Virus record (IMG/VR): IMGVR_UViG_3300044970_001833
Coordinates: 1-36,177 of that record
Strand: one strand, 5' to 3'
From: a virus
Length of the DNA: 36,177 nt
Below, piece by piece: positions 17,359-36,177 of the stretch; position 1 is the stretch's first letter; the number at the start of each line of letters is the position of its first letter. The notes below the pieces were generated by a model. That model was not told where the DNA came from and ran no database searches. It saw only the letters and a list, made by a program, of their open reading frames with translations. The translations under genes and the position numbers were made by a program.

Positions 17359-19338
17359 TTATACTACAAGTCCTTTTATGTCAGAATCTGGAAACTTAAC
17401 TTCAAATACAGCAGGATCCTTTGGTGGATACACTATATTATTTTGTGTCGCGATACTAATATTGTATGCAACGGAAGAATAATTACCGTCATCAATAGTT
17501 AAGTTTTTTATAACAATGTCGCTCACGGATTGAACGCCTTCATTTTGCATTATCTCGAAATTTATTTGACTTAAATTTATTGGTTGGTTAAAACTCCATT
17601 TATCTATATCAAAAAATGATTTTACAGATTGTATACAGCTATTTAACACTTCAGATTTATTAAATCCTTTAAATACAGTTATTTTAAATTCAACTCCAAT
17701 GTTAATTATGTAACCATCGATGATATTAATCTTATCTGTCAGAATCTTATAGTTCTGAATATATGTGGTTAGATTTTGAAGAGTTGCTGGATTTACTTGT
17801 GTTAAATTTTTATTTGCATCATATCCAAGCAAATATAAATTATTAGTAAATGGGCTATTTGACTGTAAGAATTTCTTTCTGTCAAGAGGATTTAATGGAG
17901 CTAAATTTACAGTTGAATTGTTTTCTGTATTTAAAATACCACTAATCAATCCATTATATTGAACTTCTCTAGTTAAATTACTTTGTACAAACGCTTTAGC
18001 TATATTGCCTAATTGCGGTGGCAATGCATAAATTCTCAACAAGAAATCGTCTTCTGTAACCATACGATTTTGTGTGGAAAAATTCAACATTGCATTTTGT
18101 CTAATTTCTTCGTCAGATTCAGCATCGTCACCGCCTGTAGCAGCCTCTATATTATTTACTCTTAAAGAATTTTTTATAGTATTCAATAATATAACTTCGC
18201 TGTCAGTTAATGATGTAGTATCATTTAAATAAGAAATTCCTAAAATCTTGTTGATTTCCCCAGAGTTTACGTTTGAATTTAAACCTCCGCCTATAACATA
18301 CGTTATAGTCAATGTCGTATTAGATGGAGACATACCATACGACTTTTCTTTTAACACATTGGTATTATCCAATGAGATATTTAAATTTTTTAAATTAGAT
18401 AATGCTACCCCAACATTAGTTGGATTTGGTATAACAATAGTATTTTCAAAATTCTCAGTATTTGCGCCGAATTGTAAAGTAGTCTGATTATTCTCATTAA
18501 CAACCGTAACATATCTTTTCTCCGTTCTTAAATACTTTAGAATTTTTGGAGTTTCACTTCTATATGGAGATAAAGTTTGATTGTTTAGTGGCACGTTATC
18601 CACTTCAATTGGAATTGTGTCTTGAGCCAAATAATCTACTTCGTAGTAATTATTATTATTACTATCAACGACACTTATGATTTTAAGAACATTCGTTTCA
18701 TCTAATGTTATACTATAAAAAGGCACTTGATCTGTTACACTAACTTGTTTAGTAATTACCGTTCCAGAATAAGCTTTAGCTGCTTTCTTGATTAGATAAA
18801 ATTGAGGAGCACCTGTATTATCGCGACTATACACAGATATTTCTCTAGGCGAAAATTTAGTATCTTGACTGAAGTCTATACTTTCTTCTATTACGAAATT
18901 AACTCCTGGCGTACTAGATAGTTGTGAAAATGGTTGTAATATCAAACAATAACGTTCATCCGGAAGATATTGATTATCTCTGGTACGAATAGATGGTAAT
19001 AATTGGAATACGTCAACATCAGATGAAGATGCTGAAGACACTTTTGGTTTATAACCCAAATATTTAGCCGAATTTATAATATTTCTACGATCTTGAGCAA
19101 ATTGAATATAACTTTCAAAAAATTGCTGATCTGTATAGTAAGATAATACATCTCCAACATAAGCCGCTTGGTCTATAAAAATTTGACCTGGAGAACTTTC
19201 ACTAAAATCTTTATAACTTTGTGGATAGTATTGTTTTGTGAAATCAATTAGTTGTTGACGTAAAGACGTAAAATCTCTATTAAGATAATTTACATCTTTT
19301 GTATTCGCGTCAAATGTTTTGTTAATTAGCGTTGACAT
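17359..19338 (-). CDS. gp6: Baseplate wedge protein gp6 (Baseplate J family)
   Basis: A 659-residue protein matching T4 gp6, the ring-forming wedge component of the contractile-tail baseplate. The N-terminal region is diagnostic: DVNYLNRDFTSLRQQLIDFT, then SPGQIFIDQAAYVGDVLSYY, then NIINSAKYLGYKP. The central Baseplate J segment contains ATGGDDAESDEEIRQNAMLN and MVTEDDFLLRIYALPPQLGN. The C-terminal part ends in short beta elements. The length equals the T4 protein (660 residues). Its ATG overlaps the gp25 stop by 1 base (TAATG), as expected for partners that assemble together. Very confident. Confidence 0.95.
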   Translation of the reverse strand: MSTLINKTFDANTKDVNYLNRDFTSLRQQLIDFTKQYYPQSYKDFSESSPGQIFIDQAAYVGDVLSYYTDQQFFESYIQFAQDRRNIINSAKYLGYKPKVSSASSSDVDVFQLLPSIRTRDNQYLPDERYCLILQPFSQLSSTPGVNFVIEESIDFSQDTKFSPREISVYSRDNTGAPQFYLIKKAAKAYSGTVITKQVSVTDQVPFYSITLDETNVLKIISVVDSNNNNYYEVDYLAQDTIPIEVDNVPLNNQTLSPYRSETPKILKYLRTEKRYVTVVNENNQTTLQFGANTENFENTIVIPNPTNVGVALSNLKNLNISLDNTNVLKEKSYGMSPSNTTLTITYVIGGGLNSNVNSGEINKILGISYLNDTTSLTDSEVILLNTIKNSLRVNNIEAATGGDDAESDEEIRQNAMLNFSTQNRMVTEDDFLLRIYALPPQLGNIAKAFVQSNLTREVQYNGLISGILNTENNSTVNLAPLNPLDRKKFLQSNSPFTNNLYLLGYDANKNLTQVNPATLQNLTTYIQNYKILTDKINIIDGYIINIGVEFKITVFKGFNKSEVLNSCIQSVKSFFDIDKWSFNQPINLSQINFEIMQNEGVQSVSDIVIKNLTIDDGNYSSVAYNISIATQNNIVYPPKDPAVFEVKFPDSDIKGLVV

Positions 19339-19739
19339 TAGATTTTATTAGTTTCCAAGTTAAACTCGGTTTCACCCACAGTATTATTATATCTAAAGGT
19401 AATACTTATAAATATCGAATTTTTACTATTATTATCTGGTTGAATTGGAGATAGTTCCACTTTCAATATTGTTGTGCCAGGCATAAATTTGTCAACGTCA
19501 CGTTGAATTACATCAATAATGATATCATTTGATATATCATCTCCTATATTATTAAATAATAAATTGTATAATCCAGATCCAAATGTATTATTAAATCTTC
19601 TTTCTCCAGGAATAGTTAACAATAAATTTTGAATATTTGTACCAATCTGTGAGATCGTATCTTTATTTGTGCTAAAATAACCTTGATTACCAAGTTGTAT
19701 TGGTAATGATAAACCTATAGATTTGGTTGGAGTTGCCAT
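19338..19739 (-). CDS. gp25: Baseplate wedge protein gp25 (GPW/gp25 family)
   Basis: A 133-residue protein of the gp25/gpW lysozyme-like baseplate family, which in T4 and type VI secretion systems starts sheath assembly from the baseplate. Key stretches are LTIPGERRFNNTFGSGLYNL (family pattern 'GER-x(5)-G-x-G-L'), then an acidic helix DVIQRDVDKFMPG, and beta strands with ISITFRYN. The size matches T4 gp25 (132 residues). It sits directly upstream of gp6, overlapping by 1 base, and 5 bases downstream of the 156-residue gene. Very confident. Confidence 0.94.
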   Translation of the reverse strand: MATPTKSIGLSLPIQLGNQGYFSTNKDTISQIGTNIQNLLLTIPGERRFNNTFGSGLYNLLFNNIGDDISNDIIIDVIQRDVDKFMPGTTILKVELSPIQPDNNSKNSIFISITFRYNNTVGETEFNLETNKI

Positions 19740-19744
19740 TTATT

Positions 19745-20215
19745 TTACTTGTCACCACGTTTTTTGTTTACCGCTTTCATTAGTGATCTATAATCTCTAT
19801 TCATAGCACTATAAACACTTTTTACTGGTTCAGGAGCATTCGCTGGAGCTTTTGATTCCGCAATTACTTGTGTTGATCCACCGCCAAGTCCTCCCATCAT
19901 ACTAACCAAACCACCTTCTTGTGGTACTCCGCCTGTAGTTTGATTCAAAATATCATTCAACATTGGATTGTTTGTATATTTTACAAACTTTTTGACCGGT
20001 TTAACTTCCTCTTCGATAACTTGAACATCATCCATAGTTTCCAACTCTTTGAGAATTTGTTGTTCCAAGTCAGATTCAGATGACTTTTTCTTATTCTGAC
20101 CAACTTCTTTGGAAAATATTTCTGCCAATTGAAGTTTAATTTCAGAGTGTATTACATTACGTACTTCTTGTTGTACCGTTTTCTTGATGAATTCTTTTAA
20201 TACTTCTATTTTCAT
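19745..20215 (-). CDS. Uncharacterised baseplate-operon protein
   Basis: A 156-residue hydrophilic protein that I do not recognise. The N-terminal 60 residues are a probable amphipathic helix or coiled coil (MKIEVLKEFIKKTVQQEVRN, IHSEIKLQLAEIFSKE). A low-complexity Lys/Ser/Glu segment and a short glycine-rich run (MGGLGGGSTQV, near 108-118) follow. The C-terminus is basic and helical (YRSLMKAVNKKRGDK). It is encoded between the glycine-zipper protein and gp25, so a role in baseplate hub or wedge assembly is possible; T4 encodes several small chaperones and tail-completion proteins in such positions. Confidence 0.68.
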   Translation of the reverse strand: MKIEVLKEFIKKTVQQEVRNVIHSEIKLQLAEIFSKEVGQNKKKSSESDLEQQILKELETMDDVQVIEEEVKPVKKFVKYTNNPMLNDILNQTTGGVPQEGGLVSMMGGLGGGSTQVIAESKAPANAPEPVKSVYSAMNRDYRSLMKAVNKKRGDK

Positions 20216-20232
20216 ACTATTATATATAATTA

Positions 20233-21873
20233 TTAACCCAACGGAGATTTAGGTAAATTTAATAAATCTGTTGCACCTTTTGGATTTGATGGTCTTGGTA
20301 TTTTGACTGTCTTGATGCGTGGTGTACTAGGTGGTTTTGGTATATTTGGTTTAGGCATTCCTTTTTGTACACTCGCTAATTTAGCTGCAGCCGCCCCAAC
20401 TGCTCCTCCTGAAACGGCACCAATTACAGCTCCTTTTCCACCTCCCACTATTCCTCCGATTCCGGCCCCTAACCCACCACCTGCTAAAGCTCCTCCTGTT
20501 ACACCACCAACAGATAATCCAGCGCCAAGTGCAGTACCACTTAATCCACCTATTAATGCTCCTTTACCACCCCCAGCTAATGCTCCCACACCGGCTCCAA
20601 GTGCTCCGCCCAATAAACCACCTTTCAAGCCACTAGCCAATTTAGATGTGGATTCAACCATACCTGTTTTAGCATTTACAAATTTATCATTTCCAGCTAT
20701 AGATTCAGGACTAAACTTATCTGGAGACCAATCTTTACCTAGTCCATCTGGTTTGATTCCTTTTGGATTGAGTTTATCAACAACACTACCAGCTATTCCA
20801 CCAGCTACCAATCCAGCGCCTGCTCCTATTAATGCTCCTTTACCACCACCGGCTAATGCTCCAATACCAGCTCCTAAAGCTCCTCCTCCAATTGCACCTT
20901 TAACGCCCGATGAAAGATTACTAAGTACGCCTCCTGCAGATTCTTGAGCACCACCAATTGCACCTTGAGCTTGACCAGCTGCGCCTTGTACTTGATTAGT
21001 CAATCCACCGGCCGCACTTTTAAGTTGAGATGCTGCATTACTTGCTGCGCCTTGCGCTTGTGAGGCTGCTTGTTGTGCTGCATTTGCGTCTAGCCCCTTT
21101 ACTTCTTGAGATGGAAGTTTTATGTTGGGATTATCTACTACAGGAGCTTTATTTGCTACACCATTAATTGTTTGTGTAGGAGGTCCTGGCAAAGCTGGAT
21201 CAGGATCAGATAAAAAGCAATCTGGTACCAGTTTCTTATCAAGTTGACCCGAAGAAACTTTATTTTTAATTTCTTCAAATATATAATTTACGTCAGCTTT
21301 AACACTATTTAATGATCTATTATACGAAAATTCGTAATTGGATGCGTCTGTAACAGTTGGCCAGTTGAATGCTTGAACGTTAAAAAATCGTCTAAAACCA
21401 AGTTGTGTATTGGATAGTGTCGAAGATTTGATAGAATCATATTGTGCTAAACAAGAAAGTCTATCGCCTATGCTTTCATTGAATATTGGATATTTCTCCA
21501 AATCGACGAATACGTTTATTTTAGGAGTTCCTCCTGATTTTGGCGTATAAGTTTCTGTAAAATAATTTTGAAAAAACTGAAAAGTTCTATCGTATTTTTT
21601 ATAAGTTTTAATATACTTATTATCCCCAATTTGTGCATACCCATTATTCAATAATTCAGTAGGACTATAAAATTCATATAACGATTGATAAGACTCCGGC
21701 GTTATTTTATTATCGTTACTTACAGATGTGCCTTGTGAATTTATTTTAAAAACTGATCCTACGCCTGTTTTGTATTTGTTAAAATATGGAATTATTTCCA
21801 AAGAGTTTTTCGGAAAAACTCTACCTGTTGCTGGTTGTAAATTGCCAAATATGTCTACTACTTGTAATGCCAT
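20233..21873 (-). CDS. Baseplate-region protein with glycine-zipper repeats
   Basis: A 546-residue protein in two halves. Residues 1-225 form a globular domain (MALQVVDIFGNLQPATGRVF, then FQFFQNYFTETYTPKSGG) that I cannot assign. From about 260 an Ala/Gln-rich stretch leads into three glycine-zipper blocks of the form ALGAGIGALAGGGKGALIG, ALGAGVGALAGGGKGALIG and GLGAGIGGIVGGGKGAVIG. These are segments that in other proteins insert into or pack within membranes. The C-terminus is Pro/Lys-rich (GMPKPNIPKPPSTPRIKTVK). The gene starts 3 bases after the gp5-like stop. The zipper half could contact the host membrane during injection or act as a tape-like spacer; both are inferences. Confidence 0.72.
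   Translation of the reverse strand: MALQVVDIFGNLQPATGRVFPKNSLEIIPYFNKYKTGVGSVFKINSQGTSVSNDNKITPESYQSLYEFYSPTELLNNGYAQIGDNKYIKTYKKYDRTFQFFQNYFTETYTPKSGGTPKINVFVDLEKYPIFNESIGDRLSCLAQYDSIKSSTLSNTQLGFRRFFNVQAFNWPTVTDASNYEFSYNRSLNSVKADVNYIFEEIKNKVSSGQLDKKLVPDCFLSDPDPALPGPPTQTINGVANKAPVVDNPNIKLPSQEVKGLDANAAQQAASQAQGAASNAASQLKSAAGGLTNQVQGAAGQAQGAIGGAQESAGGVLSNLSSGVKGAIGGGALGAGIGALAGGGKGALIGAGAGLVAGGIAGSVVDKLNPKGIKPDGLGKDWSPDKFSPESIAGNDKFVNAKTGMVESTSKLASGLKGGLLGGALGAGVGALAGGGKGALIGGLSGTALGAGLSVGGVTGGALAGGGLGAGIGGIVGGGKGAVIGAVSGGAVGAAAAKLASVQKGMPKPNIPKPPSTPRIKTVKIPRPSNPKGATDLLNLPKSPLG
20426..20886. repeat. Glycine-zipper coding repeats (three copies)
   Basis: Three imperfect copies of a unit of about 55 bases lie at 20426-20478, 20556-20611 and 20827-20886. 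On the plus strand each runs 'aatgctcctttaccacc...gctccaag'. On the minus strand they encode the L-G-A-G-x-G-x-x-x-G-G-G-K-G-A-x-I-G zippers. The repeats are in frame and not separately mobile. They also create a long proline-rich antisense reading frame, which is an artefact. Confidence 0.8.
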
Positions 21874-26516: not shown

Positions 26517-26999
26517 TTAATCAATCTTTACTTTCTTACTTGTCGGTACAGTTGGTTTCAACTTATTAAGAGTGACTGTCAACAAACCATTTTCAAATTT
26601 AGCCAATGGTTCGTCTTTATCAATGATATCGCCTAATGTAAAACTACGTTTGAAACTACTATGTTTTAATTCTCTACGAATGTATCTGCGATCTTGTAGA
26701 TCTGTATCTTCAAGTTTTCGAATCTTTTGACCGCTAATAGTAAGTACATTTTCTTGTACATCAACTGATACTTCTTCTTTAGACAGACCTGGAATTTCTG
26801 CTAAAATTTCTACACGATCATTGTAATCAATCACATCTACACGGGGATAACTTTGTTTTTCAAAGAATCCTATACCTAGTTCTTTTGTGATTTCTGGGAA
26901 TTGTGAAGTGAATACTTCATCAAACAACTTATCGAATGGAGTTAAAAACTCATCACGATTTAAATGGCGAAACGCCGGATTGTATCTAATTACTGACAT
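26517..26999 (-). CDS. hsp20: Small heat shock protein Hsp20 (alpha-crystallin family)
   Basis: A 160-residue chaperone. The alpha-crystallin domain covers about 45-145: YPRVDVIDYNDRVEILAEIP, then GLSKEEVSVDVQENVLTISG, then the A-x-x-x-x-G-L-L motif as FENGLLTVTLNK near 138-149. The C-terminal KKVKID is in the position of the oligomerisation I-x-I tail. Hsp20 binds unfolding proteins; in T4-like cyanophages and other aquatic T4-like phages it is a common accessory gene, possibly aiding capsid or tail folding. It is transcribed alone: there is a 133-base leader region upstream and a strong terminator downstream. Unlike most neighbours it has a good ribosome-binding site (AGAAAGGAAAATATATG). 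Very confident. Confidence 0.94.
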   Translation of the reverse strand: MSVIRYNPAFRHLNRDEFLTPFDKLFDEVFTSQFPEITKELGIGFFEKQSYPRVDVIDYNDRVEILAEIPGLSKEEVSVDVQENVLTISGQKIRKLEDTDLQDRRYIRRELKHSSFKRSFTLGDIIDKDEPLAKFENGLLTVTLNKLKPTVPTSKKVKID

Positions 27000-30222: not shown

Positions 30223-30939
30223 TTATTGCAGAGTTTTTAGTTTTTTTAATACAAATTTAACTAATCCACTTCTCACAATATCTTCTTCTTCGAATCTAAA
30301 TACATATACACCATTATTTCTACTTTCTTCGTCGTCAAATACATTCATCATTGGTACAAATCCACTTTTACCATTAATATCGCTTTGATCTGGATCACCG
30401 CAAATAAACAATTTACTAAATTCACCTACACGTGTAATTAACGTAGTAAGTTCTTTCTTAGTCATGTTTTGTGCTTCATCCGCTACAATACATTTAGCAT
30501 TCCAACTCAAACCACGTAAAAAGTTTATTGGAAATCCATGGATACGTTCTTCTTTTTTCAACTTATCAATATCGTGTTTTGGTACCAATTCTTCTAACTT
30601 ATCAATAAGTGGTTGAATATATGGACTCATTTTTTCATCCATTTCCCCAGGCAAAAATCCTAACTTACTATCGCTACTTTCAACTATACTTCTAACATAT
30701 ACTATTTCACTTACTCTTTTTTGATTCAATAAATTCAGACCGGCTAAAACAGATGTATAAGTTTTTGATGTACCGGCTGGTCCAGCAATAAAGACACACT
30801 TTGTATTCTTATTTTGTAATAATTCTAATAATTCTTTTTGTTTTGGTGTTAATTCACGTTTATCGATCTTGATATCATCTCTGATCTTTGCGTTTTGATG
30901 AACTTTTGGGCTTGTGTCTTTCTTGTTGTTTTTGCTCAT
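30223..30939 (-). CDS. phoH: PhoH family ATPase
   Basis: A 238-residue PhoH-like P-loop protein. Walker A is GPAGTSKT at 53-60, with serine where the usual motif has the glycine before Lys. Other family blocks are IVYVRSIVESSDSKLGFLPG (79-98), then GEMDEKMSPYIQPLIDKL (98-115), Walker B with IVADEAQNM (151-159), and FICGDPDQSDI near 183-193. PhoH genes are widespread in phages of aquatic bacteria; RNA helicase-like or phosphate-starvation-related roles are proposed but the function is unsettled. The start overlaps the upstream gene by 65 bases; the family core begins around residue 29, so the extra N-terminus could be shorter, but no other Met is available before the P-loop. Confident family call. 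Confidence 0.92.
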   Translation of the reverse strand: MSKNNKKDTSPKVHQNAKIRDDIKIDKRELTPKQKELLELLQNKNTKCVFIAGPAGTSKTYTSVLAGLNLLNQKRVSEIVYVRSIVESSDSKLGFLPGEMDEKMSPYIQPLIDKLEELVPKHDIDKLKKEERIHGFPINFLRGLSWNAKCIVADEAQNMTKKELTTLITRVGEFSKLFICGDPDQSDINGKSGFVPMMNVFDDEESRNNGVYVFRFEEEDIVRSGLVKFVLKKLKTLQ

Positions 30940-31889: not shown

Positions 31890-34595
31890 ATGGACCAAAA
31901 TTTAAATCATAAAGAAGCTGTAATAAAAGACATTTTAAGAGAATTTATATATACAGAATTTAATTCTAAGAAGTCTTTGACCGAATCATATTTAGGAGTT
32001 AGTAAAAAATCAAAATTCTATAAATTATATCAAGAGGGTATCAATCAGGGTATAGAATTACAAACAGAGGTTTTATACGAAATAATAAAACAAGATTCTA
32101 AATTAAGCGAAGATATATTTCAAAGAGCAACCGCTGGTTTCAAAAATATATTTAAAGCTGGAGACGCTAAAACTAAATTAGATACCTATTTTCAGACGTT
32201 TAAACAACAAACCGAACCTTACGTTACAACATCTCCTCCGCCTGCGCTTTCAGGTATGCCAGCTAATGTTTCCGCTGCACTTCAAAATTATCGAGGAGTT
32301 GGTCCTGGTCCAAGTCAATATGCACCAGATCCAGAAACAAGTGCCGATAAATTCGGAGGTACCGCAAATACACAAAATACTAAACAAGGCATTCCTGGTT
32401 TAGGTGTACTATTTGGCAAAAGATTTGCAAATTTAAGACCAAATCCTAAACTACAATGGTCAGCAGGCACTCCAGAAGAAATTGCTGCAAAACAATCTAA
32501 AGTAGAACAATTGTTGAATAAACTACGTGCTAAATTGCCACAATCATTCAATGATGCTTTAGATGAAATTGGTATTTTTGCAAGAGAACATCCTTATATA
32601 ACCAATATACTTATTGGCGCACTCGTTAGTTTGCTCGTTGTTAAACTTGGTCCATTAGCATTGATTCCAAAGATATCAACATTTATATTGGGCACCGCAT
32701 TAAGAACCATAGTGGGCATACTAAAAGGAGAAGAACCTGTACGTGCCGGTGTTAAAGGTGCAACCGTTACTGCTGCAGCAATTGGAATTAGCGATCTGTT
32801 CACAAAATACATTCCAAAAATAATGGAATGGTTGATGTATAAATTTCAAGGACCAGCTGGAGCAATGGGACCACAAGGCCCAGCAGGCGGAATGGGTCCA
32901 GCAGGTCCACAAGGCCCAGCAGGAGCAGCTGGTGAACCTGGAGTACCAGGAGAGAGTGGACCTGGACCTGCGGGACCACAAGGCCCAGCTGGGCCACAAG
33001 GTCCAGCAGGACCTGCTGGAACATCATTTGGTGGTGGCACTGGAGGAGTTACTACAACCACTGTACCATCAATAACAAGCGATACAATTCAATCAAAAAT
33101 AAATGCATTGAATAATTTACCAGATTGGACTTCTTTAAAAGCTGGCCAGTTAACCCAAGACGTTGTAAAACTTCTTAATGGTCAATATGTACAACCTAAA
33201 GAAGCATTAGAAATGTGGATAAATTCCATAAAAGACGTAGGTGAAGCAAAACAATTAATAAATGCTCCTGGCATAAGACAACAACTTATGCGAAAAGGAC
33301 TATTGAGTATGTTTAGCAAGAAATTCGGTATACAAGAAGCTTTGGAACTAGATGTGATTAAAGCTGAATTATTAGCCGAAGCAAATCCTCTTCAATATGC
33401 GTTTGGTACTAGAGGCGCAAATATGGGTGCTGAAAGAATGGATTATAAATCAGTCGAAAGTGCTTATAATAAGTTCTTAACAAATGCTGGTATATTACTC
33501 AAACTTAAAAATCCAACAAGAGCAGACGTTGAGAAAAAAATATTAGAAACTGATAAAAACGTTTATGACTACTTGATGAAAGTTAAAGATTGGTTGTATC
33601 CACGTAAATCAGATAAAGAAGCACTTCCAGATAAAGTACCAGCTCCACAACCAACTCCAACTCCTCCTGGCCCAACTCCAATTGTACCAGAACCAGTTAC
33701 TCCTACCCCACAACCTGGTCCAACACCAGTTCCACAACCACCACAACCTGGACTAGTTACTCCTCCAAAACCAGGACAACCAGGCGATGATAATCTATTT
33801 GGTCCAGAAGATTGTGACAAGATTAGAAAAATTGCTCGTAAACAAGTATTCGCGTTGCGTTTACAAGGATTCGTAATTCCTCAAGGTGGAGATTATACGA
33901 AACCAAAATTAACAGGTCCAGACAAGGTAAATGTTGTTTATTATATCAAAAATTCATCAAATGTAAGTGCTAGATACACAATTTTGATGAATGGAAAACC
34001 GATGGCATTTAGAATCGGTAATAAAAATCTCATATCAAAAACATATGTAGATTCATTCAAAGGAAAATTGAAAGAAGCTGTAGTTAATCTATCTGTTGAG
34101 TCAATGAAAAAAGAATTTACTTCTCACTTTGTAATGGCTCTTACAAATGGAATAATGAAAGATCCTACTTTTAATCCTAAAAAATATAAGTTCCAAAGTC
34201 AAGCTTCGTATCAAGTTCTATTTGATAAAGTTAATGAGTGTATTCAAGGCGACGATCAATTGAGTGGCGAAATTTCTAGTATGTTACAAACCCATACTAG
34301 ATTTATATCTAAATTCATCGATGATCCAATGAACGAAAAATATAAACCTAAATTTATATTCGCTGTAACTACAGCTAGAACGTTCATTCTTGAAGAAGAC
34401 GGCAGTCAAATAACTCCTAACAAACCAGAAGAACAACCAAAAGGTTCCAAGAAACCTAAATCTATCAAACCAGAACCAACGAGTACTTCTGAACCACAAG
34501 TAAAAGGTTTTGGTATTCAGTCCAAAGGAGACACTAAAGGCGCAGCAGAATCGATAACAAAACTTGGTAATTTATTAAAAAATATAAACAAATAA
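31890..34595 (+). CDS. Membrane-associated structural protein with collagen-like domain
   Basis: A 901-residue protein and the only large plus-strand gene. Residues 1-150 are a helical N-terminal region with a disordered linker. A hydrophobic segment follows at about 238-260 ([20 protein letters not shown]), with a second at about 264-276. Residues 321-377 are 18 G-x-y triplets of collagen type, rich in GPA and GPQ, with one two-residue (GP) break. A helical region runs to about 580 (residues 455-480 [20 protein letters not shown]). A proline-rich linker covers about 585-632 ([17 protein letters not shown]). The C-terminal domain (about 640-830) is globular. The tail is charged. The function is unknown; a virion or membrane-anchored trimeric protein is suggested by the collagen and anchor. 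Confidence 0.76.
32850..33020. repeat. Collagen-like G-x-y coding repeat
   Basis: 171 bases encode 18 G-x-y triplets plus a GP break ([11 protein letters not shown]). Frequent 'ccacaaggcccagc' blocks make the DNA itself repetitive and locally GC-rich against the AT-rich background. Confidence 0.9.
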
Positions 34596-34966: not shown

Positions 34967-35151
34967 TACTTAGTTGGATCTCCAATTGAAGCTTCTTCTA
35001 CAATCGCTTTAATTTCAGATTCAATTTCTTTCATGCGATCTTTGTAGCCAGCAGCTACATCCTTGAAGTCTTTCTTAACGTGTAAGAGATCTTCTGTTAG
35101 TTGATATACTTTCTTTTCGGCTTCGGCCTTTGTTAGTTTAATATTACTCAT
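34966..35151 (-). CDS. Small coiled-coil protein
   Basis: A 61-residue, wholly helical protein (SNIKLTKAEAEKKVYQLTED, then LLHVKKDFKDVAAGYKDRMK and EIESEIKAIVEEASIG). It has heptad-like spacing of hydrophobic residues. Its ATG overlaps the stop of the ADP-ribosyltransferase-like gene by 4 bases (ATGA), so the two are translationally coupled. It ends at the bidirectional terminator. It could be a partner of the upstream protein; the function is unknown. Confidence 0.7.
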   Translation of the reverse strand: MSNIKLTKAEAEKKVYQLTEDLLHVKKDFKDVAAGYKDRMKEIESEIKAIVEEASIGDPTK

Positions 35152-35558
35152 AACTGTTTTAAGTCTATAATTTTGGTTACTGCTTCTATCGGTATATAAC
35201 TAGTAACATAATTGCCTGGATCTACATTTTTTAAATCGGGTAACTTACTTTTATCTATTACTACTACTATACCCTCACCTTTGTCTCTGTAATTGACCAA
35301 CGCAAACCTAGCTGCCAATTTAAAATCACTCGCTAGATAACTACCCACAATGTTTCGGGTATTTCCTTTACCTTTTGACGTAACTTTACCAGTACTCTTC
35401 AAAATATTATACTCTTTCTCAGACATCCCTCTATAAAGTTTAGTACTATCCGTAGGAATTTTATCTAACTCATCGGCGATATCTTGTAATTTTCCAGTTG
35501 GTTCCCATACTAGATAATCATATATGCTAGATTCGTATAATAAACTATATCTTTTCAT
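35148..35558 (-). CDS. Small ADP-ribosyltransferase-fold-like protein (tentative)
   Basis: A 136-residue protein. Several features recall mono-ADP-ribosyltransferases: LYRGMSEKEYNILKSTG at 41-57 ('Y-R-G' with R43 as NAD-binding arginine), then GSYLASDFKLAARFALVNYR at 72-91 ('S/T-x-D...A-x-x-x-A', as in the ART central strand and helix), IVVVIDKSKLPDL at 97-109, and a late glutamate in YIPIEAVTKI (E125). T4 itself injects and makes ARTs (Alt, ModA, ModB) that modify host RNA polymerase and ribosomal proteins. The match is by pattern only and the protein is small, so another fold is possible. TATTTATA lies 5 bases before the ATG (35564-35571). Confidence 0.5.
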   Translation of the reverse strand: MKRYSLLYESSIYDYLVWEPTGKLQDIADELDKIPTDSTKLYRGMSEKEYNILKSTGKVTSKGKGNTRNIVGSYLASDFKLAARFALVNYRDKGEGIVVVIDKSKLPDLKNVDPGNYVTSYIPIEAVTKIIDLKQL

Positions 35559-35583: not shown

Positions 35584-35799
35584 ATGGAAGAGATTAATTT
35601 TCACCAAGTTAGTATAAACAATCACGATATAACAGTTTGGGCTAATAGATTTGTTGTACTAAGACATCCAGAAAAATGTGATCTATACGAGGATGATTGT
35701 TGTAGAGAACGAATCACGAAGTATTTAATTGAAGAAGGTTACATCAATGATAGTGGAGTGTTGATTATTGATAGCTACATTGATTTTGAACCAGAATAA
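35584..35799 (+). CDS. Small uncharacterised protein
   Basis: A 71-residue protein that I do not recognise (MEEINFHQVSINNHDITVWA, then FVVLRHPEKCDLYEDDCCRE, ending IDSYIDFEPE). It has three cysteines, a CC pair among them, and is acidic. It is the only reading frame in this gap on the plus strand and is divergent from the ART-like gene. Its stop codon is 2 bases from the 3' end of the convergent tmRNA. No terminator is visible between them. Confidence 0.6.
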   Translation: MEEINFHQVSINNHDITVWANRFVVLRHPEKCDLYEDDCCRERITKYLIEEGYINDSGVLIIDSYIDFEPE

Positions 35800-35801
35800 A
35801 A

Positions 35802-36177
35802 TGGTGGACGCGGGCGGAGTTGAACCGCCGTCTTTAACAGATAACTTACATCAGACTACACGCTTATATATTTTGAATTGTTAGGAAGTAATAATAAAAA
35901 ATATCTAAAAATATTACCCTTAAGATTTACTAATATCTCGACCATTTACGCAAATCAAATATTTGGTCCAGTCCAATAATTTACACTCAACACAACTATC
36001 AGACTTTATTGTATTGAATGTGCAACAACTTAGGCTGCAAGGGCTACTACTTCATCGTAAGAGAAGTCATAGCTAACTACGTTATCTTCAGCAGTTAATG
36101 TTTCGATAGGTGTATTAAAGAGGCCAACTATCATCCTCTACGTGCCTAACATACGTGTACTATTAAATCGATACCAG
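35802..36177 (-). ncRNA. ssrA: Transfer-messenger RNA (tmRNA), 3' end complete, about 10 nt of the 5' end outside the window
   Basis: tmRNA rescues ribosomes stalled on broken mRNA and tags the partial protein for proteolysis. The 3' end reads GGCGGTTCAACTCCGCC (a perfect T-arm with the tRNA-like TTCAA loop), then CGCGTCC-A-CCA, with encoded CCA. AAGCGTGTAG upstream matches the conserved AAGCAUGUAG near the end of E. coli tmRNA. At the other end CTGGTATCGAT is the D-loop-like start (E. coli CUGGAUUCGAC). A pseudoknot like PK1 follows: GAGG/CCTC and GATAG/CTATC interleaved. After 12 bases comes resume codon GCT (36090-36092) and an open frame of 20 codons ending in ALAA-TAA. The acceptor implies that the missing 5' end is close to GGRCGCG. 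It lies 2 bases from the convergent 71-residue gene. Confidence 0.95.
36030..36092 (-). other. tmRNA proteolysis-tag reading frame
   Basis: From GCT (36092) to the single TAA (36030-36032) the frame encodes AEDNVVSYDFSYDEVVALAA. The last residues, ALAA, are the classic degron end read by ClpXP-type proteases. The start is chosen from the PK1-to-resume distance (12 bases, against 11 in E. coli) and from TTAACT just before GCT, resembling the E. coli TAGTC element. An earlier in-frame start is less likely. Confidence 0.85.

Follow-up and report, generated by a model that had tools for sequence, protein, structure and literature searches.

A one-piece tmRNA gene of uncultured phages with a long tag and an apparently exchangeable tRNA-like domain

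Our analyses revealed that the viral contig studied here (IMG/VR record IMGVR_UViG_3300044970_001833; its full 36,177 nt are referred to as the window) ends inside a one-piece tmRNA (ssrA) gene, whose first 9 nt lie outside the contig end. We consider it likely that the gene encodes a working phage tmRNA that uses host factors; its transcription, charging, use of SmpB, tagging, and the degradation of tagged products are what we infer from the sequences of the window and its relatives.

Results

The Window Ends in a Nearly Complete tmRNA Gene

A cmscan search against Rfam matched positions 35802 to 36177 (minus strand) to the tmRNA model RF00023 with 97.5 bits (E value 4.6e-37), the gathering score being 47. 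The match spans model positions 10 to 374, the 5′ end of the gene being cut, and is the sole gathering-level RNA match in the whole 36,177-base record. ARAGORN called no tmRNA in the window, which is the expected outcome for a gene without its 5′ acceptor strand. The numbering of the mature RNA, 1 to 385, was taken from the complete relative L002, such that a window coordinate equals 36187 minus the RNA number; the window thus holds nucleotides 10 to 385 of the 385 found in the complete copies of L002 to L005.

The original prediction of a nearly complete tmRNA with an encoded CCA, T arm, PK1 pseudoknot, and tag frame was borne out in every part. All elements lie on the minus strand, and the pairing values given with them come from an alignment of 54 relatives (A1, described below). 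The CCA 3′ end is encoded at 35802 to 35804 and ends all 54 rows of A1, from which L013, a copy lacking it, was left out. The 3′ acceptor strand CGCGUCC (35806 to 35812) has its partner GGGCGCG outside the window, as seen in L002 to L005, and includes U70 of the G3·U70 pair, an alanine identity element. The adjoining T arm (35813 to 35829; helix 16) has the canonical form of 5 bp and a 7-nt UUCRA-type loop, here UUCAACU; it is matched by RF00023, and all five of its pairs are changed on both sides across relatives. Helix 2 (helices 2 to 4 of the covariation test) is formed by a 5′ side at 36140 to 36167 and a 3′ side at 35833 to 35863. The pseudoknot PK1 (36105 to 36138; helices 5 and 6) is 100% paired with one compensatory pair, and is nearly invariant in the phage family. 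The tag frame (36030 to 36092) starts with the resume codon GCU, encodes the 20-residue peptide AEDNVVSYDFSYDEVVALAA ending in ALAA, and stops at a UAA in the H5 loop; it was identified by translation, by ARAGORN on L002, L004, and L005, and by its pN/pS ratio. The H5 terminal hairpin with this stop codon (36022 to 36038; helix 9) is paired in 95% of cells. It is followed by PK2 (35971 to 36020; helices 10 and 11, ∼98% paired, 12 pairs changed on both sides), PK3 (35924 to 35968; helices 12 and 13, 81% and 99% paired), and PK4 (35868 to 35919; helices 14 and 15, 96% and 93% paired). Relatives match the one-piece model colinearly over positions 1 to 374, and the mRNA-like domain is present in full; hence the gene is of neither the permuted two-piece form nor the form reduced to a tRNA-like domain, as in DS6A.

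Complete Relatives Supply the Missing 5′ End

Using the tail fibre-like gene at 31890 to 34595 as an anchor, we retrieved eight relative loci, seven of which contain a complete tmRNA with RF00023 scores of up to 124.1 bits; the eighth, L009, has no tmRNA in the stretch examined. The missing 5′ strand had been predicted to read GGRCGCG and to pair with CGCGTCC, and the lack of such a strand had been named as grounds for abandoning the idea. L002 to L005 begin with GGGCGCG, which pairs 7/7 with the CGCGUCC of the window and places G3 opposite U70. RF00023 scored above its cut-off in 33 of 36 relative records, the remainder being L009 (no match) and two records cut through the gene. Second tmRNA copies were considered and rejected, as the weak second RF00023 matches that were compared sit on tRNA genes.

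The Fold Is Backed by Covariation

Alignment A1 holds 54 distinct copies with an AEDN-type tag, chosen from 56 by omitting L013 (no CCA) and L043 (cut). Its rows were picked by a tag rule (start A[EK][DE]NV, end A.AA), and conservation of the tag ends is thus partly by construction; the tested structure was drawn from L004 and relatives, which favors it over slid versions. Standard pairs occupy 93.5% of 5768 cells, and sliding the partners lowers pairing to 41 to 49%. Changes on both sides are seen in 54 of 107 pairs, versus a shuffled mean of 31.1 and 14 to 24 with slid partners, and the covariation score is 0.308 compared to 0.168 in shuffles. None of 500 shuffles reached the observed values on any of five measures, a control that overstates significance because the sequences are related; with related rows and a structure taken from the family, these figures are strong support and not probabilities. 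Covariation is present in the acceptor, T arm, H2, PK2, PK3, and PK4, and helix 2 and the four pseudoknots are supported by it over the 54 distinct relatives. The H5 coding hairpin, with 75 to 90% of cells paired in helices 7 and 8, is weakly supported. Acceptor pairs 1 to 3, including G3·U70, are invariant (54/54), and pairs 4 to 7 vary with compensation.

Over a wider set of 127 copies, which includes contig duplicates and one MAG contig, a script taking the best-pairing acceptor site per copy found a perfect 7-bp acceptor stem in 118, with 13 different stem pairs. The nine others comprise the mixed copies L019 and L022 (see below), a cut copy, and copies with an unresolved 3′ end. An encoded CCA is missing in several copies, for example L013, L105, and L106.

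Phage Genes and tRNAs Surround the tmRNA

The original prediction placed the gene in a phage cluster next to T4-like late genes. The phage setting stood: virion genes share the contig with the tmRNA, both in the window and in a 132-kb contig, G010, of which L011 (tmRNA at 129,653 to 130,037) is part. The window encodes two baseplate wedge subunits on the minus strand, at 17359 to 19338 (phrog_219) and at 19338 to 19739 (phrog_261 and phrog_43), the second of which we take to be gp25-like, and, on the plus strand, the tail fibre-like protein used as the anchor (31890 to 34595; phrog_5073 and others), which has a collagen-like stretch. "Late genes" describes these baseplate and tail fibre genes but not the whole contig, which also carries replication genes (SbcC-like, primase, and RuvC-like) as well as Hsp20 and PhoH genes; the last two, an Hsp20-like small heat shock protein (26517 to 26999) and a PhoH-like protein (30223 to 30939), are phage-encoded. 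Many window ORFs gave no PHROG match, including both that touch the tmRNA: a 136-aa ORF adjoining it (35148 to 35558, minus strand; no Pfam match either) and a 71-aa ORF convergent with it (35584 to 35799, plus strand).

In G010, 12 of the 20 large proteins scanned, out of 87 ORFs of at least 150 aa, have PHROG matches; named genes include those for the terminase large subunit, portal, major head protein, a UvsX-like recombinase, a DnaB-like helicase, and ribonucleotide reductase. Neither the PHROG-named proteins of the window nor the 20 large G010 proteins included an identified tail sheath. The PHROG gene names of the window and G010 would fit a T4-like myovirus.

The region to the right of the tmRNA, where host genes such as smpB would have spoken against a phage gene, was reached through the relatives. 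L002 and L007 stop within tens of bases of the tmRNA; relatives extending further show a tRNA array on the same strand, ∼30 to 1,500 bases off the tmRNA 5′ side, followed by further phage contig. The array starts with Gly(gcc) and Ala(tgc) in, for example, L003 to L006, L008, and L010, and is interspersed with unknown ORFs and a methyltransferase-domain protein. A search for SmpB (PF01668) was negative in all 85 phage records (9 + 28 + 48, the last batch being 48 of 69 listed loci) and positive in 10 of 14 control genomes. All the records are contigs and may be incomplete, so this absence is no proof; presumably, host SmpB is used.

Two sequence elements were seen near genes. TATTTATA, which we take to be a late-promoter-like element in the orientation opposite to the T4 consensus, lies within the 60 nt that precede 5 of 28 window ORFs, versus a mean of 0.28 in random windows. 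The motif [GA][AT]TCTTT[GAT]A, which to us resembles a boxA element, lies 6 to 9 nt upstream of the mature tmRNA 5′ end (for example, in L004, L030, and L104); it is present in 32 of 54 distinct tmRNA upstream regions, versus 2 of 212 phage tRNA upstream regions and 147 of 20,000 random 30-mers.

Isolate Phages Give Distant Matches

A blastn search of 50,697 phage records gave no match to the window tmRNA; blastn also gave none for L104 and L092 and, for L090, only a 31-nt match at the 3′ end. No isolate with a close tmRNA was found in these searches. For two structural proteins, the best isolate matches were phages of Microcystis, Flavobacterium, and Rhodothermus at 30 to 40% identity; the product of 17359 to 19338, for instance, is 40% identical to that of Microcystis phage Mel-JY01 and 36% to that of Flavobacterium phage immuto. 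Phages of Pseudomonas, Agrobacterium, and Stenotrophomonas match 13 to 15% of one structural protein, and two other phage proteins had no isolate match. Shine-Dalgarno-like cores precede 5 of 28 window ORFs versus 1.8 in shuffles (p 0.013), a value that does not decide the host.

The Tag Is Long, Constrained, and Apparently Phage-Specific

The 51 of 54 A1 rows with 20-codon tags (L051, L099, and L128 were dropped for length) comprise 23 distinct DNA sequences and 17 peptides. In this set, pN/pS is 0.35 in the tag frame (19 codons; 0.33 over 20), compared to 0.86 and 0.97 in the shifted frames, and all 20 third codon positions vary, versus 13 first and 8 second positions. The tag is constrained as a reading frame, a part of which is by construction, through the row rule on the tag ends, or structural, as the region is folded.

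The AEDN tag pattern ending in A-x-AA was found in 60 viral stretches and, as an exact pattern on contigs of at least 3,000 bases, in none of 84,980 species genomes; two pattern searches combined place the tag family in 64 viral contigs. Residues 5 to 10, V[VI]SY[DN]F, which were free in the search pattern, are kept in all 29 newly found loci. As far as this exact-pattern search of the genome collection shows, the tag is phage-specific. The PK1 sequence was found in at least 119 viral stretches versus five genome contigs: three of Pelagicoccus, one of Lentisphaeria, and one Nitrospinota MAG contig. The Pelagicoccus and Lentisphaeria tags, GTHEEMPLAA and AKPSFAMAA, are quite unlike the phage tag. 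A host origin of the tag is not supported, with no match to its exact pattern in the genomes searched and only the PK1 sequence shared by Pelagicoccus and Lentisphaeria. The Nitrospinota MAG contig (L088; DUZG01000043.1) has the same size (16916) and tmRNA sequence as the viral contig L112 and is thus probably a phage contig mis-binned with the MAG.

By rule, a tag was recognized in 117 of the 127 copies, a set gathered by one PK1 pattern. These contain 37 distinct phage tag peptides, 36 of them 19 to 45 aa long and one of 9 aa. ARAGORN differs from the rule for some copies: it gives L091 and L101 tags of 16 aa, L104 and L105 tags of 23 and 25 aa, and L100, L114, and L116, to which the rule assigned none, a tag of 11 aa. 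In a host sample of 35 loci, mainly from the phylum of Pelagicoccus, ARAGORN called 30 tags, 29 of 9 to 10 aa and one of 20 aa; the loci without a call are L178 (a tmRNA locus of the Pelagicoccus phylum), the MAG phage contig, and three weak tRNA-like matches. The commonest tag length given in the cited account of the tmRNA database is 10 aa (PMC11915505). The phage tags are longer than the host tags, a comparison that is suggestive only, as the sampled phylum may not be that of the phage host.

Two further groups of phage tmRNAs stand apart by their tags. One has tags of 33 to 45 aa with the core LLAEAEYIFNNA (L094, L096, L104, L105, L106, L110, L129, L133, L147, and others) and the other 31-aa tags such as ANNIVDMAPSLDEADAILAKFGWAEEAAVAA (L092, L098, L115, L122, and L130). 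By eye, the tags of both groups look helix-forming.

The tRNA-Like Domain Appears to Be Exchanged as a Two-Ended Cassette

The copies in A1 have nearly the same middle joined to ends of two types. Type A ends, which the window has, combine stems such as GGGCGCG, a D loop with GG, and a canonical T arm. In type B ends, the stem is GGGGAUG/CAUCUCC, the D loop reads, for example, UAGAUUCGA, and the T stem has 6 bp, mostly with the loop UGCGACU. Among the 54 rows, 37 are A/A, 15 B/B, and 2 mixed (L019 and L022). When L027 (type B) is compared to L011 (type A), identity is 99.5% over 600 nt upstream and 98.3% in the middle (287 nt), versus 52% for the 42 nt of the 5′ end and 65.5% for the 58 nt of the 3′ end; downstream, 1,772 of 6,000 nt match at 99.2% identity. 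L037 (type B) and L011 show the reverse pattern, with 98.1% identity over 5,499 nt downstream and little upstream match. These comparisons indicate that the phage genomes are mosaics, near-identical only in long stretches, and flank identities of 41 to 55% in several of six globally aligned pairs reflect insertions or replacement beside the gene.

Mapped onto a tree built from the middle part, the type of the 5′ end switches six times or more; this is a parsimony figure only, as the tree is weakly resolved, with 24 weak inner branches out of 48, and is drawn from a recombining region. Since an acceptor stem needs both halves matched, the recurrence of paired replacement suggests that a working tRNA-like domain is under selection. 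What appears to be new is that this domain, forms with an altered elbow among them, would be exchanged as a matched two-ended cassette between locally near-identical phages. A host switch as the cause of the swap was judged less likely, as phages that are 98 to 99% identical over long adjacent stretches differ in their ends. The mixed copies (L019, 849 to 1235; L022, 1410 to 1796) join a type A 5′ half to a type B 3′ half with 5/7 acceptor pairs; they could be real recombinants or assembly chimeras across the nearly identical middle.

A D loop without GG goes together with a changed T arm. Sixty of 87 distinct phage copies have a GG D loop and a canonical T arm. Of the 18 that lack GG, 17 have a visible T arm, which is canonical in none (0/17), with a 6-bp stem (GCGGGG, ACGGGG, or AGGAAG) and a 7-nt loop or, once, an 8-nt loop, and many of the 17 are closely related, so that independent origins are fewer. 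Six have GG with a noncanonical call: L106 and L142, where a canonical arm is visible, are parsing failures, and the other four have 8-nt loops. The last three have no clear acceptor partner. ARAGORN made no call on any type B copy run, and the records with type B forms score ∼100 to 110 bits to RF00023; surveys using ARAGORN only may therefore under-count phage tmRNAs.

Another change at the 3′ end was seen in L084 (contig G012, ∼19757 to 20396), where a stretch of ∼640 bases, which holds an ORF of 190 aa without a Pfam match, lies at the tmRNA 3′ end, the T arm is exchanged, and the CCA is not encoded. This looks like a mobile insertion.

Discussion

The working phage tmRNA that we favor would probably be cotranscribed with the neighboring tRNAs of the phage and matured in the manner of a tRNA. 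It would receive alanine, via G3·U70, from the alanyl-tRNA synthetase of the host, and host SmpB and EF-Tu would bring it to ribosomes stalled on broken mRNA, as expected from the destruction of host mRNA during infection. Translation would restart at GCU and append the 20 residues of the tag, with ALAA at its end, and the UAA in the H5 loop would release the ribosome, leaving host proteases that read such C termini to clear the tagged fragment. Its roles would be ribosome recycling and phage-specified tagging.

Several other accounts of the gene were weighed. The phage might have picked up a host ssrA gene, whole or in part, by chance, for example in a prophage integrated at ssrA, or the contig might be a mis-binned host one. 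The ssrA gene is described as a common integration site in the cited sections of two papers (PMC11915505, PMC9004378), and the PK1 sequence also occurs in three Pelagicoccus genomes and one Lentisphaeria genome. Yet the relatives have full-length copies next to tRNAs and phage genes, the tag is common to 64 viral contigs with its pattern absent from the genome collection, and the Pelagicoccus and Lentisphaeria tags are quite different; we regard accidental carriage as highly improbable. It is still harder to credit that the gene is a decaying remnant without function. The mismatched halves of L019 and L022 and the copies without an encoded CCA (L013, L105, L106, and others) would be in keeping with decay, but pairing in 93.5% of 5768 cells, 54 compensatory pairs, and 118/127 perfect acceptor stems are not, and the mismatched contigs could be assembly chimeras. 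The RNA could instead act as a decoy of the DS6A kind, tying up SmpB, EF-Tu, or AlaRS and so blocking host trans-translation. Inhibitory tmRNA-like RNAs are known in phages from the parts of the literature cited (PMC4131195, PMC11915505), and in a phage that presumably relies on host SmpB the phage copy would compete with the host tmRNA. However, a decoy would not need the pseudoknots, resume codon, tag frame, and stop, all of which are kept, the tag frame under constraint, and we consider a decoy very unlikely.

Two readings concern what the tag and the ends are for. Re-targeting might be the main job of the RNA, the long phage-specific tag directing protein fragments, of the host or the phage, to a particular protease or adaptor, a task that goes past ordinary rescue. 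The tag lengths point this way (19 to 45 aa in 36 of 37 phage tags versus 9 to 10 aa in 29 of 30 host-sample tags, with 10 aa commonest in the database according to the cited account, PMC11915505), as does the retention of V[VI]SY[DN]F in 29/29 new loci. Against it, the coding region is also folded (H5), which may constrain its sequence, and the loci are related; the phage set came from one PK1 pattern, with 10 of 127 copies lacking a tag by rule; ARAGORN gives shorter tags for some copies; and the host sample is essentially one phylum. We hold this reading as possible but rather unlikely. A bolder and, in our view, doubtful proposal is that of a tmRNA lineage of the phages' own, its tag a phage-made address and its tRNA-like domain a swappable two-ended cassette that locally near-identical phages would trade, at times for rebuilt elbows (GG missing from the D loop, together with a T stem of 6 bp or a T loop of 8 nt), so as to stay active as host factors or defense nucleases reading the standard elbow change.

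A phage tmRNA is in itself a known kind of gene; the large uncultured lineage with long tags is apparently new. Similar to bacterial one-piece tmRNA (ssrA), the window RNA has the G3·U70 acceptor, T arm, helix 2, four pseudoknots, a resume codon, the tag end ALAA, and a stop codon in the H5 loop. Unlike it, the window RNA has a 20-aa phage tag and an AT-rich body and belongs to phage contigs without a detected smpB; some relatives also differ in their 6-bp T stem or 8-nt T loop, mostly without the D-loop GG. In the sections cited here, a 2014 list of phage tmRNAs names ten phages (PMC4131195), and a 2022 study counted tmRNA in 402 of 18,146 phage genomes and proposed the same two roles (PMC9004378), such that the rarity assumed in the original prediction holds only loosely. 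The tmRNAs of mycobacteriophages (Bxz1, Cali, Wildcat, and others) and of Bacillus phage G are likewise full and in tailed phages, as described in the cited part of that list (PMC4131195), but have no detectable DNA similarity to the window tmRNA in blastn against the 50,697 phage records. Melnitz and related marine myophages are, in the cited sections, T4-like aquatic phages, as the window phage may be, and the same roles were proposed for them, but their tmRNA is two-piece and permuted with a glutamine riboswitch (PMC9004378), whereas that of the window is one-piece. Huge phages share a phage translation toolkit and, in the passages cited, carry tmRNA together with SmpB (PMC7162821), which was not found in the window group. 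The DS6A tmRNA is also phage-borne but, in the accounts cited, consists of a tRNA-like domain only (PMC4131195, PMC11915505), whereas that of the window is complete. Our searches of open-access PMC papers turned up no account of phage tmRNAs with exchanged tRNA-like domains or altered elbows.

A distant relative, the uncultured 484-kb phage LR756508.1 (38% identity to the window baseplate gene; SmpB not found), carries a full tmRNA at 92434 to 92880 (L077) and also a 112-nt form with the tRNA-like domain only, at 414804 to 414915 on the plus strand (locus L079, 1501 to 1612). The short form has a G3·U70 acceptor, scores 58.2 bits to RF00023, and folds at −41.9 kcal/mol (z −2.7), a value equaled or bettered by 3 of 200 shuffles; its exact sequence is absent from the viral contig collection. 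It resembles the inhibitory DS6A form, here alongside a complete tmRNA.

With these findings, the benefit that a phage draws from a tmRNA of its own becomes a question that can be tested. The large uncultured family has one conserved phage-specific tag that can be sought in the proteomes of infected communities, and the swaps of its tRNA-like domain would be a natural experiment on the part of a tmRNA that has to suit the host and on the degree of change that the elbow tolerates.
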